NCBI RefSeq assembly: GCF_001676655.1
Contig: NZ_LZDB01000002.1
Coordinates: 1,054,001 to 1,118,000 of the forward strand
Source of the DNA: Perlucidibaca aquatica
GTDB lineage: Bacteria; Pseudomonadota; Gammaproteobacteria; Pseudomonadales; Moraxellaceae
Reading direction: 5' to 3'
DNA length: 64,000 bases
The position numbers and the translations under genes were made by a program. Shown in pieces: positions 1 to 9,400 of the stretch. The notes beneath the pieces are model-generated. The model saw only the letters and a program-made list of their open reading frames with translations. It ran no database searches and had not been told where the DNA came from. The stretch's first letter is position 1, and each line of letters starts with the position of its first letter.

Positions 1-116
1 CATCACACCCGTGAATGGTCTTTTACCCATACCAACAGCGTGGCAAGCGGTTATCGCTACCGTGCTATAAAAATAGATCGGCGTATGCCTTGCGTTGATC
101 GAACATCCCGATAATA

Positions 117-132
117 CTGTCCGTATGAACAG
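117..132 (+). promoter_or_regulatory. LexA (SOS) box overlapping the umuD start
   Basis: The sequence CTGTCCGTATGAACAG is a perfect CTGT-N8-ACAG inverted repeat, the core of the gammaproteobacterial LexA operator, and is flanked by TA on the left as in the consensus. The ATG at 125 lies inside it. A GATAAT (110-115) just upstream could serve as the -10. Bound LexA would then cover the transcription start and the first codon. The box is seen directly; binding by LexA is inferred from the consensus and from the umuDC genes it precedes. Confidence 0.85.
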
Positions 133-571
133 CATTATCGGCAAACCCCTCATCCCCTTCATTCGTCGTCGCTTCGCGTTTTTCGATGCGCTGATTCCGG
201 CTGGCTTTCCCTCGCCAGCCGCCGACTACGTACAAAACAGCATCGATCTCCATGAGCGTCTGATTCACAACGCCGCGGCCACATTCTTTGTGCGCGCCTC
301 CGGAGACTCCATGCGCGATGCCGGCATTGTTGATGGCTCGGTGCTGGTGGTGGATGCCTCACGCCCGCCCGTCTCTGGCCATATTGTGGTGGCCTGCTTG
401 GATGGGAAATACGTGGTCAAGCGCCTGCGTCACAGCCAGGGCCGCGTCGAGCTGCACTCGGAAAACAGCCTCACGCCCTACCCCGTGCTGCGCCCCAGCA
501 CCGACTTACAGATCTTCGGAGTGGTCACCAGCCATATTGTGGAACACCTAAAAAAACCGAGGACAGGCTAA
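125..571 (+). CDS. umuD: UmuD-like SOS protease, DNA polymerase V accessory subunit
   Basis: This is an S24 (LexA-like) self-cleaving serine protease. RecA filaments stimulate cleavage to UmuD', which joins UmuC as the error-prone polymerase V. The protein is 148 residues from the ATG at 125. The cleavage site is Ala26-Gly27 in PAGFPSPAADY. The catalytic serine is Ser62 in SGDSM and the general base is Lys99 in VVKRL, close to Ser60 and Lys97 of E. coli UmuD. A TTG at 95 is in frame, but ATG125 puts the cleavage site at the usual distance from the N terminus. Neither start has a clear Shine-Dalgarno. The ATG sits inside the SOS box, so the mRNA could be nearly leaderless. umuC starts 5 bases after the stop. 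Confidence 0.93.
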   Translation: MNSIIGKPLIPFIRRRFAFFDALIPAGFPSPAADYVQNSIDLHERLIHNAAATFFVRASGDSMRDAGIVDGSVLVVDASRPPVSGHIVVACLDGKYVVKRLRHSQGRVELHSENSLTPYPVLRPSTDLQIFGVVTSHIVEHLKKPRTG

Positions 572-575
572 GCTC

Positions 576-1844
576 ATGGCGCTCTATGCTCTGGTAGATG
601 CCAACAATTTCTACGCCAGCTGCGAGAAAATTTTCGACCCCGCACTGGCCGACACGCCCTTGGTGGTGCTATCCAATAACGACGGCTGCATTGTTGCACG
701 CTCGGCCGAGGCCAAGGCGCTGGGCATTCCCATGGGCGCGCCCATGCATCAGTGGCAAGCCTTTTGCGATGCTCACGGTGTGATCAGCAAAAGCTCCAAC
801 TACACCCTCTATGGCGACATGAGTGCGCGCATGCTGAGCATTCTGCAGGACATGTGCCCGCAAGTTGAAAGCTACTCCATCGACGAGTCCTTTCTCGACC
901 TCGCCGGCTATGCCGATGCCCGCGCCTATGGCCTGCGTATCCGCCAACGCTTGCAGCAAGACATCAAAATCACCTGCGGCGTGGGCATAGGCGCGACGAA
1001 AACGCTGGCCAAATTCGCCAACCATCTGGCGAAGAAGCAAGCGGAATTCGCGGGCGTCTGCCAACTCAGCGCCAGCACCTGCGCGCGCACTCAGGCACTT
1101 ATGGCCGCTTACCCGGTGGCCGAGGTTTGGGGCGTGGGGCGACAACTCAGCGCACGCTTACAGGCCGACGGCGTGGAGACCGTTTTAGATTTAGCGCGCT
1201 GCGATCCGCTGGCCATTCAGCAGCGCTATGGCATCGTGCTGGCAAAAACCGTGCGCGAGCTTCGCGGTGAGCCCTGCCTCACGCTCGAGGACGTCGGCCG
1301 CCCGAAACAGCAAATCATCGCCTCACGCTCGTTTGGCACCACAATCACTGACCCCAACGCCATCAAAGCCGCCATCAGCCATCATGTCAGCCGAGCGGCC
1401 GAAAAGCTGCGCGCCCAGCAAGGGCAATGCGCACACCTGTATGTCATGTTGCGCACCAACCCATTTCGCGAACAAGATACGCAATATCGACGCAGCATTT
1501 TGGTGCCACTCGCGCAAGCCTCTGCCGATACCGGTCTACTGCTGGCCGCTGCCATGCGGGGTTTAAAACAGATTTTTGTGCCGGGTTTGCGCTACCACAA
1601 GTGCGGCGTCATGCTCGGTGAAATCAGCCCCGTGGGCCAACAGCAAACCGATTTGTTTGCCCCGGTCGATGACCCGAAACGCTTGCGTCTCATGGGCCTG
1701 ATGGATCGCATTAACCGAGATCAAGGCGCTGGCACACTGCAATTTGCCAGCACACAACTCAGCAACACGTGGCAAATGCGTACCGGCAATCGCTCGCCAC
1801 GCTACACCACCTGCTGGGACGAACTACCGATCGCCTATGCCTGA
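576..1844 (+). CDS. umuC: UmuC, Y-family translesion DNA polymerase V catalytic subunit
   Basis: This 422-residue protein copies damaged templates with low fidelity after SOS induction, as the catalytic partner of UmuD'. The Y-family palm acids are present: Asp8 in VDANNFYASCE, and Asp103-Glu104 in SYSIDESFLDL. A QTDLF pentapeptide at residues 357-361 matches the position and form of the E. coli UmuC sliding-clamp-binding motif QLNLF. Length equals the E. coli protein. The start is ATG at 576 with a GGACAGG ribosome site just upstream, and it is translated in one operon with umuD. No frameshift or missing catalytic residue is seen, so pol V should be functional. Confidence 0.97.
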   Translation: MALYALVDANNFYASCEKIFDPALADTPLVVLSNNDGCIVARSAEAKALGIPMGAPMHQWQAFCDAHGVISKSSNYTLYGDMSARMLSILQDMCPQVESYSIDESFLDLAGYADARAYGLRIRQRLQQDIKITCGVGIGATKTLAKFANHLAKKQAEFAGVCQLSASTCARTQALMAAYPVAEVWGVGRQLSARLQADGVETVLDLARCDPLAIQQRYGIVLAKTVRELRGEPCLTLEDVGRPKQQIIASRSFGTTITDPNAIKAAISHHVSRAAEKLRAQQGQCAHLYVMLRTNPFREQDTQYRRSILVPLAQASADTGLLLAAAMRGLKQIFVPGLRYHKCGVMLGEISPVGQQQTDLFAPVDDPKRLRLMGLMDRINRDQGAGTLQFASTQLSNTWQMRTGNRSPRYTTCWDELPIAYA

Positions 1845-1897
1845 ACGGCAGCGCAATCGTTATACTGACCCACATTGCCGACAGGGAGACTGGCTCG

Positions 1898-2260
1898 ATG
1901 ATGAACACCCGCTTACAAGCCCGCGTCACGGAGCACTTGGAAACGCTGATGGCCGAAATCCGGCCACTCCCCAGCGAGCGAACACACTTAGACTTCAGCT
2001 ATCGCCTCAACGATGACGCCTTTATTGTGCAGCAGCACGCGCGCGCACTCGATGCCGAAATGCTGGTCGCACATCCGGTGTTGAAAGTCCTGCATAGTGA
2101 AGACCCGGATGGCTGGCTGCTCTACGAGCTCAACAGCGACGGCCACTGGCAAGCCTATGCCGACATGGTGTTTAGCGCAGACCTGAGCGATGTCATGGGC
2201 GTCGCCCGACGCATGGCGGGCCTGGAAGAGCAGCGCCCATCCATCTCAGTGGCGAGCTAG
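1898..2260 (+). CDS. DUF3024-like small protein
   Basis: A 120-residue soluble protein read from the ATG at 1898, with AGGGAG ten bases upstream (ATG at 1901 is also possible). The middle resembles the DUF3024 pattern: an Arg/Tyr-rich beta segment (LDFSYRL), then HPVLKVLHSEDPDGWLLYEL and a WQAYADM stretch where the family has a W-hydrophobic-Y/W-x-aD-WH-Y pattern. The biochemical function of DUF3024 is unknown. It lies 53 bases after umuC and before a UvrC-like nuclease on the same strand, so it may be read with the SOS genes. No SOS box of its own was found. The family call is by eye and moderate. Confidence 0.55.
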   Translation: MMNTRLQARVTEHLETLMAEIRPLPSERTHLDFSYRLNDDAFIVQQHARALDAEMLVAHPVLKVLHSEDPDGWLLYELNSDGHWQAYADMVFSADLSDVMGVARRMAGLEEQRPSISVAS

Positions 2261-2305
2261 CCCTGTAGACTTGCAGGCGCACCCAAACTTGCTAGGGTGC
2301 GCGCC

Positions 2306-3670
2306 ATGTCCAACACACAAAGCAACCTGCACAGCCACTCCCGCGACGCTGAACTGCTACGCACGCTTGCCCTAGCGCTGGGTCAGCCCGTGGTCATCGC
2401 CGGCATGACCTTGAGTGGCCCACGCTATCATCGTGACCACCTAACTGCGCTCAGCCTCGCCACGCTCAACGCCGACACCGTGAACCTGCAACACTGGTCC
2501 AGCACCGCCGACATCGCTCCACTGACCACACCCGATCACCCGATCAACGGCCTCTGGCAAAACCATTGGCTCATCGCTCACAGTGCACGCCTGCACTACG
2601 CCTATTTAAAAGCGACTTGGGCACGCGCCGATCAAAACCTACAGCTCCGCACGCTATGTGCTCAGCGGCTAAGACAAACGCTGAATCTTCCGGTCTGGCC
2701 ACTTAAGGGGGACGCCAGTGAACGCCTCCGGCAAACGCTAGACAGCCTCCACGATGCGCTTGAGCAAGCAGGCCTCAGTGCCGTTCAAACCGCCATCAGC
2801 ACGCTGAAAAAGCGCCCCAGCCTGCCGCCGTATTTAGATGAAACGCTGGTGGATGAAATGCCCACCCGCTGTGGCGTGTATTTTTTTCATGGCGACAGTG
2901 GCCTGCTCTATGTCGGCAAAGCGAAGAACATCCGCCAGCGCGTACTCAGCCATTTCAGCAACGACATCAGCGATGCCAAAGAAATGCGCATGGCGCAGCA
3001 GGTACGGCATATCACGTGGGAGATCACCGCCGGTGAACTGGGTGCTCTGCTCCGCGAGGCGCGCTATGTGAAAACCCTACAGCCTCTGCATAACCGACAA
3101 TTACGTCGGCAACAGAAGCTGATCTCGCTCACGCTCGCTGCCAACCCCGATGGCCTGCTGCAACCTCACTGGCTCGATAGCGATGCCGTGAATGCCGCCC
3201 AATCGCTCTACGGTTTGTTCACCTCACCCGCCGCTGGCAGCAAATTCCTGCGGCAACTGGCCAGCAACCACGGGCTCTGCGATTACGCACTAGCCCTGGA
3301 GCGCCGACTCAAGCGCCCTTGCCCCTCACGCCAGCTGAAGCGCTGCCAAGGCCTCTGCGACGGCAGTGAAACCATCATGAGCCACAACCAACGCCTGCAA
3401 GCCGCTTTAACTGCACACGCGGTGATGACTTGGCCCTTTGATGGCGCCGTGGTTATTACCGAAACCGATGCCAGCAATGGCGACACCGATTTTCACGTCA
3501 TTCAACACTGGTGCTGGCTAGGCAGCACAGCACACGCTCACGAAATTGAAGGCATTGCGCGAACACCCACGCAAGCGCTGCTCGATAAAGACAGCTACCG
3601 GCTCTTGGTGAAAGCCCTGCTCGGGCTATCGCCGTTACCGCATCGGTTACTCACGCCAAGCGCCTGCTGA
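2306..3670 (+). CDS. GIY-YIG (Cho/UvrC-like) endonuclease fused to a degenerate DEDDh exonuclease-like domain
   Basis: This 454-residue protein has two parts. Residues about 25-160 follow the DnaQ/epsilon exonuclease layout, but DLETTG is replaced by AGMTLSG (32-38) and the second motif AHNARFD by AHSARLH (91-97), so the metal-binding acids are gone. Residues about 185-265 are a complete GIY-YIG domain: CGVYFF (189-194), LYVGKAKN (201-208), Arg210 and Glu251 in LLREARYVK. This is the fold of the UvrC N-terminal half and of Cho, which makes the 3' incision in nucleotide excision repair. The remaining Cys-rich C-terminal part resembles UvrC/Cho tails. GTG at 2297 is in frame, but ATG at 2306 has GCTAGGG upstream and is preferred. 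Following umuDC, it likely acts in damage repair. Confidence 0.82.
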   Translation: MSNTQSNLHSHSRDAELLRTLALALGQPVVIAGMTLSGPRYHRDHLTALSLATLNADTVNLQHWSSTADIAPLTTPDHPINGLWQNHWLIAHSARLHYAYLKATWARADQNLQLRTLCAQRLRQTLNLPVWPLKGDASERLRQTLDSLHDALEQAGLSAVQTAISTLKKRPSLPPYLDETLVDEMPTRCGVYFFHGDSGLLYVGKAKNIRQRVLSHFSNDISDAKEMRMAQQVRHITWEITAGELGALLREARYVKTLQPLHNRQLRRQQKLISLTLAANPDGLLQPHWLDSDAVNAAQSLYGLFTSPAAGSKFLRQLASNHGLCDYALALERRLKRPCPSRQLKRCQGLCDGSETIMSHNQRLQAALTAHAVMTWPFDGAVVITETDASNGDTDFHVIQHWCWLGSTAHAHEIEGIARTPTQALLDKDSYRLLVKALLGLSPLPHRLLTPSAC

Positions 3671-6432: not shown

Positions 6433-9400
6433 CTAGGTAAGGTCCGGTAGCGAGGTATGGCCAGTAAGGGTTTTTTTTGCTCGAACTGCCTCGCCAAAAC
6501 GCAGATAGAGACTGGGCACCACAAACATGTTCAGCGCTGTGGATGACAGCAAACCAAACAGGATAACCACTGCCATGGGGGCTTGAATTTCGCTGCCGGG
6601 CTCACCCGCCGCCAAAGCCAGTGGCACTAAGGCAAGACCTGCCGCCAGAGCCGTCATCAGGATCGGTACCAATCGTTCGCTAGCACCACGCATGACTGCC
6701 GCACGCGCATCAAGCACGCCCTCTACTTCTACGAGATGTCGGATGTGCGAGATCAGCATCACACCGTTGCGAGTGGCAATGCCGAAGAGCGTGATGAAGC
6801 CGATCAGCGTGGCCACAGACAGCACACCGCCCACGACATACATCCCGACCACTCCGCCAATCAGCGCCAGCGGTAGATTCAGCATCACCACCAGCGCATC
6901 TCGTGTTGAGCGAAAGGCGAGGTAGAGCAACATGAAGATGCCTGCCAAAACTAACGTGCCCAAGGCTGTCAGCGTTTGTGTGGCTTCACGCGCACTCTCG
7001 AACTGTCCCCCGTATTCGATGTAGTAACCGGTAGGCAGCTTCACCTCACGCTCAACACGAGTACGAATGTCTTCGACCACACTAGAGAGGTCACGATCAG
7101 CGACATTGGCCATGACCACAATCTTGCGCTGAACATTCTCTCGGCTCACCAGATTGGGGCCGCGATCACGTGTGATTTCAGCAAGCGCTGATAGTGGCAG
7201 ACGGGCTCCAGAGGCGGTGGTGATCAACGTCGATTGCATCGCCTCAAATGAGTCGCGCACGACGGGATCAAAGCGCACCACGAGATCAAAGGTGGCTTGT
7301 CCTTCGAGAATCTTTGACACCGCTGTGCCGGCAAATGCCGTCTCAATAGCATCGGCGACCTCACGCATGGACAGCCCATATTGAGCCATTGCATCGCGGC
7401 GGAATCTGATCGTGATGAACGGGATATCAGCTTGCTGCTCTAGTGATACATCCACTGCGCCGGGTACCGCCGCCGCAATGCCTTTGACCTTTTCACCGAG
7501 TTTGCGTAGCTCATAAAGGTCTGCGCCGAAGAGCTTTATGGCGATGTTGGCACGAGTGCCCGAGAGCATGTGATCGATACGGTGCGAGATGGGCTGACCA
7601 ATCACCACGCTCATCCCAGATACCGATGCGAAGTCGGTACGCAAGGCCGCTAGCAGCGCCGCTTTGTCACGATCCTTCATGGCTAGCGTGGTCTCGATCT
7701 CAGACGCGTAGATCTCTTGGGCGTGCGGGTCCGCAGGTGCTCGGCCCGTGCGCCGTGCCGTGGCGACGACTTCGGGTTGTGCCAGCAGGATGGCTTCAAC
7801 ACCCTGTGCCATCCGGTTGGACTCAGCCAGCGATGTGCCTGGCAGGGTGGTGACATTCACCGTCAGGCTGCCCTCATTGAAGTCCGGCAGGAAGGTCCGA
7901 CCAGCGCCAAGCAGCGCAACCAAGGCCACGACCAGCGCAATCCCGGATACGCCGGCAACCAGCTGCCAACGCTCCAGCAGACCCGAGAGGGTGCGCTCAT
8001 ACCACGCCTTCATCTGCGTCAACAGACGAGGCTCATGATGCGTGAGCACCGTCGGGTCATTGAGCAGGAAGCGCTCGGCCAGCACCGGCGTAACGGTAAT
8101 CGCCACCAGCAGCGACGCACTGAGGGCAACGACATAGGCAAAGCCCAAGGGAGCCAATAAGCGCCCTTCTACGCCGGTCAGGAAGAAGATCGGCAAGAAC
8201 ACCAGCATGATGATCAGCGTGGCGAACACAATCGAACCCTGAATCTCACGCGTCGCCTCGAAGACAACTTGTCGGATGGGCAGGCGCTCGGACTCGTCTA
8301 GGCTCAGGTTTTGGCGCAGCCGTCGCATGATGTTCTCAACGACGATAATCGCATCATCCACCAACGCACCCAACGCAATGGCCAGACCACCCAATGTCAT
8401 TGTATTGAGAGATGCCCCCAGGGCATGAAGGATCAGAATGGCCACCATCAAGGATAGTGGTAGTGCCACTAGTGTCACCGCTGTTGCCCGCCAAGACAGC
8501 AAAAAGGCGAACACAATCGCGATCACTAGAATCACGCCATCCCGGAGCGCCGACAGCAAATTGTCGAGTGCTCGTTCGATGAAGTCTGACTGACGAAAGA
8601 TCTTGGTTTCGATCTTCATGCCAGCCGGCAGGCTGCCCTTCAGGCTGGCAAAGGTCTCATCCAGTCGATGCGTCAATTCCAGCGTATTCACCCCCGGTTG
8701 CTTTTGAATGGCGAACACGACCGACGGCTTGCCGTTATGCGCGGCCGTGCCACGGACAACGCCGACACCCATGCCGACCTCTCCCAAGTGCCGCACCAGT
8801 ACGGGCTGTCCAGCAACCAATGCGACTACCGACTCACCAATATCTTCCGGCTTTTGCAGACGGCCAAGGCCTTGAATCAGGTACTCCTGACCGCCTTCCT
8901 GATAGAAGCCTGCAGGCGCGTTCTGGTTACTCTCGCGCAGCGCTTTTAACACCTGATCTACGGTAATGCCGTAAGCGGACAAGCGCTCCGGGTTGAGTGT
9001 GACCTGATATTGCTTTTCATCACCGCCAATAGTCAGTACCTCGGCAACGCCGGGTAAAGCCAGCAGACGACGCCTAACAACCCAGTCTGCCGTGGTCTTG
9101 AGATCAGCGGCGCTGGCGCGATCAGAGGTCAGGGCAACAAACATGATTTCGCCCATGACCGATGCTGCGGGTGCCATCTGCGGTGGCGGCAAGTCAGGCG
9201 GTAGTGTGGAGCGAGCCAACTGCAGCTTTTCAGCCACAATTTGGCGTGCCTCACGCACCTCGACGCCCCAGCCGAATTCAACCGTGATCACGGCCAAGCC
9301 AACGGTGGTGCTCGAGCGCACACGACGCACACCGGGCGAACCATTCAATGCGGTCTCAATCGGGAAAGTGATGAGACTTTCCACTTCCGTGGGTGACATC

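Follow-up and report, generated by a model that had tools for sequence, protein, structure and literature searches.

The 454-residue protein encoded on the forward strand at positions 2306 to 3670 (ATG at 2306, stop codon at 3668-3670) of the analysed 64,000-nucleotide stretch of Perlucidibaca aquatica DNA, referred to below as the window, belongs to the Cho+Exo subfamily known from the literature and is a GIY-YIG repair nuclease of the Cho type. The comparison with homologues and the predicted fold make it probable that this protein is a lesion-incising Cho+Exo nuclease, which has retained its N-terminal exonuclease domain in a non-catalytic, pseudo-exonuclease form. The Cho family is already known, and the noteworthy part is that the inactivation of the exonuclease with retention of its domain is recurrent. 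The open reading frame itself is as given in a preliminary description of this DNA, which had proposed that a GIY-YIG nuclease is fused there to a dead exonuclease-like domain.

Domain layout and the former exonuclease site

The C-terminal part of the protein was recognized in several searches. Residues 180-439 matched excinuclease Cho (NCBIfam PRK10545, 3.6e-69), with a score of 233 bits, which is below the equivalog cut-off of 367 bits, while residues 157-355 matched PRK07883 (3.1e-30), and solved UvrC N-domains matched residues 184-268 in a PDB sequence search. The GIY-YIG domain (2861-3109, forward strand) matched PF01541 at 1.9e-7, and the alignment with homologues showed that it retains not only the Tyr, Arg and Glu residues previously pointed out (Y192, Y202, R212 and E251), but also G204 and N263. 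It is followed by a cysteine-rich (C4) segment typical of UvrC and Cho (3278-3358, forward strand), in which the cysteines are kept, and then by the Cho C-terminal domain, as assigned from the alignment and the family description (PMC1564403). The cho gene is single-copy in the genome, where one weaker second match lies inside a 646-residue open frame, presumably UvrC.

The N-terminal DnaQ/DEDDh-like domain (about residues 29-170; 2390-2815, forward strand) was compared with that of L009, a fusion from another species of the same genus, in which the motifs DLETTG, AHNARFD and HRALDDA are intact and the C half is 61% identical to that of the window protein. Where L009 reads VDLETTG and AHNARFD, the window protein reads AGMTLSG in the former ExoI motif (GMTLSG at 2402-2419, forward strand) and AHSARLH in the former ExoII motif (2576-2596, forward strand), so both acidic motifs are replaced, as had been noticed from the sequence. 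The ExoIII motif is affected too, with HRALDDA changed to HDALEQA (2750-2770, forward strand). The four acidic metal ligands are thereby gone (D to G33, E to T35, D to H97 and D to Q154). The histidine, H149, is probably kept, although the alignment is gapped in the ExoIII stretch, and it is the only one left of the four acidic ligands and the histidine that define an active DEDDh site. The conserved Glu of the ITE(I/V)G sequence is also lost in the alignment. The suggestion that the domain was kept at full size did not hold, since it is about 35 residues shorter (net) than the L009 domain: about 22 residues are missing around the NPxxxIPxxIxxLTGI sequence, so that this segment (LTGI below) is absent, and about 16 around ExoIII.

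No exonuclease model matched the N-terminal domain of the window protein in Pfam, NCBIfam or PDB sequence searches, while the corresponding domain of L009 matched PF00929 at 2.6e-31. The two domains are nevertheless homologous, as a BLASTP comparison covering residues 1-200 encoded by the open frame gave 2e-19. Replacement of the domain by one from another family was rejected, because its best BLAST hit is the intact domain of the same genus.

Predicted fold and distribution of the inactivated state

The domain is predicted to adopt an RNase H/DEDD core fold. AlphaFold2 modelling of window protein residues 1-183 with a 74-row alignment gave a pLDDT of 85.4 and a pTM of 0.81, and modelling of another dead domain (L141) gave 90.4 and 0.85, in both cases with alignments that contained intact homologues, which may favour or impose the exonuclease fold. 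The window model was similar to epsilon (1j53; Z 11.2, 123 aligned residues, rmsd 2.6 Å) and to RNase T (3ngy; Z 11.7), and the L141 model to epsilon (Z 13.0), so that these models resemble folds of the DnaQ, RNase T and ExoI type. Hence, the structure prediction against epsilon-type exonucleases, which had been put forward as a check, returned a related rather than an unrelated fold. Together with the lack of a rebuilt metal site, this upholds the original reading of an inactivated DnaQ-like domain fused to a Cho GIY-YIG nuclease.

Homologues were gathered from the genus, family, order and class, and 103 DnaQ-type fusions were scored. All five DEDDh residues were kept in 97 of them, which indicates that the conservation of the exonuclease residues is more than chance, while six GIY-YIG positions were kept in 103 of 103, the dead fusions included. 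The six dead fusions are the window protein, three proteins of genus g73 (L102, L141, L142) and two of genus g138 (L148, L149). The statement that the exonuclease stays active in known fusions is thus correct for the large majority, but it does not extend to the five other dead fusions. The C-domain tree placed the window protein as sister to the intact L009 with support of 100/99, and the fact that the nearest homologue is intact shows that the loss happened in the lineage of the window protein.

The distribution of the dead state points to repeated inactivation. On the C-domain tree it requires four changes, at least three of which are forced by well-supported branches. On the N-domain tree the g73 proteins form one clade (100) and the g138 proteins join it at 91, which could be a long-branch attraction, while the window protein is placed elsewhere. 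Judging from these trees, the loss in the window lineage is independent of that in the other dead lineages, and the total comes to a minimum of two inactivations, or to three or four if the C-domain tree is followed. Transfer of the domain from another dead lineage was rejected in view of its position outside the g73 and g138 group on the N-domain tree. The LTGI segment that is absent from the window protein is missing from the g73 proteins too.

The survey also returned stand-alone Cho proteins near or inside the fused clade, with five changes, at least three of them forced; for example, L106 lies among fused sisters with support of 100/95. No credible match to remnant exonuclease DNA was found before the stand-alone cho genes L106 and L137. 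The repeated appearance of stand-alone Cho near or within the fused clade suggests that the exonuclease is often dispensable.

Several individual genomes showed further particularities. The fusion L085 (genome G996) has the atypical motifs LENTG and AHDARTD with all five catalytic residues aligned, and it could possibly represent an early stage of change. Genome G1208 contains two fused cho copies on different contigs (L158 and L161) with identical tree rows, which could reflect either a true duplication or an artefact of the assembly. In the low-completeness genome G365, cho is split over two frames (L043 and L044).

Retention of the inactivated domain

To describe the constraint on the dead domains, substitution rates were compared between the two halves of the proteins. 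The Nei-Gojobori dN/dS ratios of the dead domain were 0.20 in g73 and 0.30 in g138, versus 0.13 and 0.15 in the C half, which shows that these domains are constrained and somewhat relaxed, and supports retention under selection in these two other dead lineages. In the window protein, the terminal branch of the N-domain was 6.4 times that of the C-domain on a fixed topology; the 76 intact rows had a median ratio of 0.81, and none of them reached this value. The N-domain excess of the other dead lineages was located in the stems (about 3-fold), and was smaller later (0.9 to 2.7). The C-domain branch of the window protein was ordinary (0.45 versus 0.35 in its sister L009). The substituted core residues of the window domain tracked the hydropathy of the family (r of 0.49 versus a neutral mean of 0.17), with 12 of 2000 simulations as high, when neutral drift was simulated from L009 at 72 ungapped positions; over all aligned positions the result was weaker (30 of 1000 simulations as high). 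This test is supportive only, because L009 was taken as the ancestor and the simulated sequences were not realigned, and it suggests that selection has kept the dead domain in the window lineage as well.

Cho incises on the 3′ side at lesions marked by UvrAB (PMC1564403, PMC518961). According to a proposal cited in PMC1564403, a Cho-exonuclease fusion incises next to the lesion, and its own exonuclease then starts at the nick and degrades the strand past the damage. By analogy with E. coli Cho, the GIY-YIG half of the window protein would make the 3′ incision at UvrAB-marked lesions, while, with its 3′-5′ exonuclease inactive, the protein would no longer trim the nick in cis. If so, the damaged oligonucleotide would have to leave by the UvrC 5′ incision and a helicase, or by the action of another exonuclease. 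The dead domain might then stay because it is needed for protein folding, positioning or some binding surface. The fact that distant relatives independently lost catalysis and kept the domain makes it seem useful beyond cutting DNA.

Two refinements of this explanation differ in why the dead domain stays. The first, which has a substantial though less than even chance of being correct, is that it is a passive vestige in an intermediate between Cho+Exo and stand-alone Cho, retained as a carrier of the start codon that must not misfold. The repeated origin of stand-alone Cho described above is in agreement with this, as are the 6.4-fold faster N-domain in the window lineage and the earlier conclusion that the E. 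coli-type Cho has lost an exonuclease domain (PMC1564403). On the other hand, the constraint on the g73 and g138 domains and their return towards normal rates after the stem speak against it.

The second refinement, which we regard as somewhat unlikely, follows the preliminary description in giving the dead domain an acquired function: by binding to single-stranded DNA or to a partner, it would direct the incision made by the GIY-YIG half. Catalysis was lost recurrently while the domain was retained and constrained, and the ExoII arginine (R95), which is kept in all aligned fusions, is present in every dead copy. In genus g73, two positions around the former active site have changed to Arg, and the large fragment of Bst Pol I can still enter proofreading complexes with DNA although many of its exonuclease residues are missing (PMC5990039). 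The net charge is +2 to +9 in the six dead domains, whereas intact ones average -1.5 (sd 2.9), but the loss of about five acids by itself explains most of this shift, and for this reason positive charge was rejected as a sign of DNA binding. Besides, the LTGI segment, which lies near the DEDDh substrate site, is deleted in both the window protein and g73, the domain is absent altogether in other lineages and so is not essential to Cho, and the observations agree just as well with a passive scaffold that is in the course of being lost. The broader proposal that Cho+Exo exonucleases repeatedly became DNA-holding pseudo-enzymes, with the LTGI segment convergently deleted in two lineages and incision guided rather than followed by resection, appears doubtful.

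It is improbable that the whole gene is decaying, or that an internal translation start leaves the N-domain unmade. The N-domain is very fast, and an ATG at residue 185 could in principle serve as a start; however, the frame is open with all indels in-frame, the GIY-YIG and Cys residues are intact, the C-domain branch is ordinary, the core hydropathy is retained, and a start at 185 would cut residues that stand-alone Cho proteins carry before GVY. An exonuclease still active through shifted or replacement residues is very improbable. The acids D150 and E153 near H149 would speak for it, but the ExoI strand contains no replacement acid, there is none at the position of ExoII, and the ITE(I/V)G sequence has lost its Glu, although two-metal DEDDh catalysis requires these carboxylates. 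Nor is the metal site rebuilt by acids that have shifted.

Gene neighbourhood, related systems and meaning

The cho gene lies downstream of umuD (95-571), umuC, encoding the Pol V catalytic subunit (576-1844, profile match), and a gene for a DUF3024 protein located between umuC and cho (1895-2260, domain match), all on the forward strand. The genome encodes LexA, and a LexA-type box, CTGTCCGTATGAACAG, lies at 117-132, where it overlaps the probable start of umuD. No LexA-type box with at most one mismatch was found directly before cho, between 133 and 3981, so damage-induced expression of cho would need read-through from umuDC, and its damage-inducibility is uncertain. A near-identical box, ACTGACCATATGAACAGT, is present at umuD of a related species (L094, about 9320-9337). 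In that species cho is divergent from umuDC (L094, 7780-11036), while in the window (95-3670) it is downstream on the same strand, which suggests that the gene moved or was inverted beside umuDC within the genus. An eight-base-pair hairpin, GCGCACCC/GGGTGCGC, directly precedes the cho ATG (window 2277-2302), but with a fold z-score of -1.5 it was unconvincing. Just upstream of the window there are tandem near-duplicate open reading frames of 161 and 162 residues with a signal-like N-terminus (L171, 8508-8993 and 9268-9756).

The domains of the window protein (DnaQ-like, GIY-YIG, C4 and Cho C-terminal) follow one another as in members of the Cho+Exo subfamily of GIY-YIG nucleases described by Dunin-Horkawicz et al. 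2006 (PMC1564403), such as L009, but the window protein differs in the loss of the exonuclease residues and the LTGI segment. It shares the GIY-YIG, C4 and Cho C-terminal domains with E. coli Cho, which is stand-alone and has no N-domain, while the window protein keeps this domain in a dead form. The actinobacterial DnaQ-UvrC-like (Cho-like+Exo) proteins of PRK07883 have the same DEDDh and GIY-YIG order, but they are named as DEDD exonucleases, and a UvrB-binding domain replaces the Cho domain (PMC1564403). The Bst/Geobacillus DNA polymerase I (PMC5990039) likewise keeps, in a repair and replication enzyme, an exonuclease domain without critical catalytic residues; however, it is a polymerase in which the DNA-binding cleft still works, whereas the substrate region of the window protein is partly deleted.

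Fusions in which the incision residues are intact and the exonuclease is dead add a case of repeated catalytic loss with domain retention, and they illustrate how stand-alone Cho might have evolved from the fused form. In addition, they provide matched pairs, the window protein with L009 and the g73 proteins with their relatives, that bear on the question of whether the exonuclease step matters.
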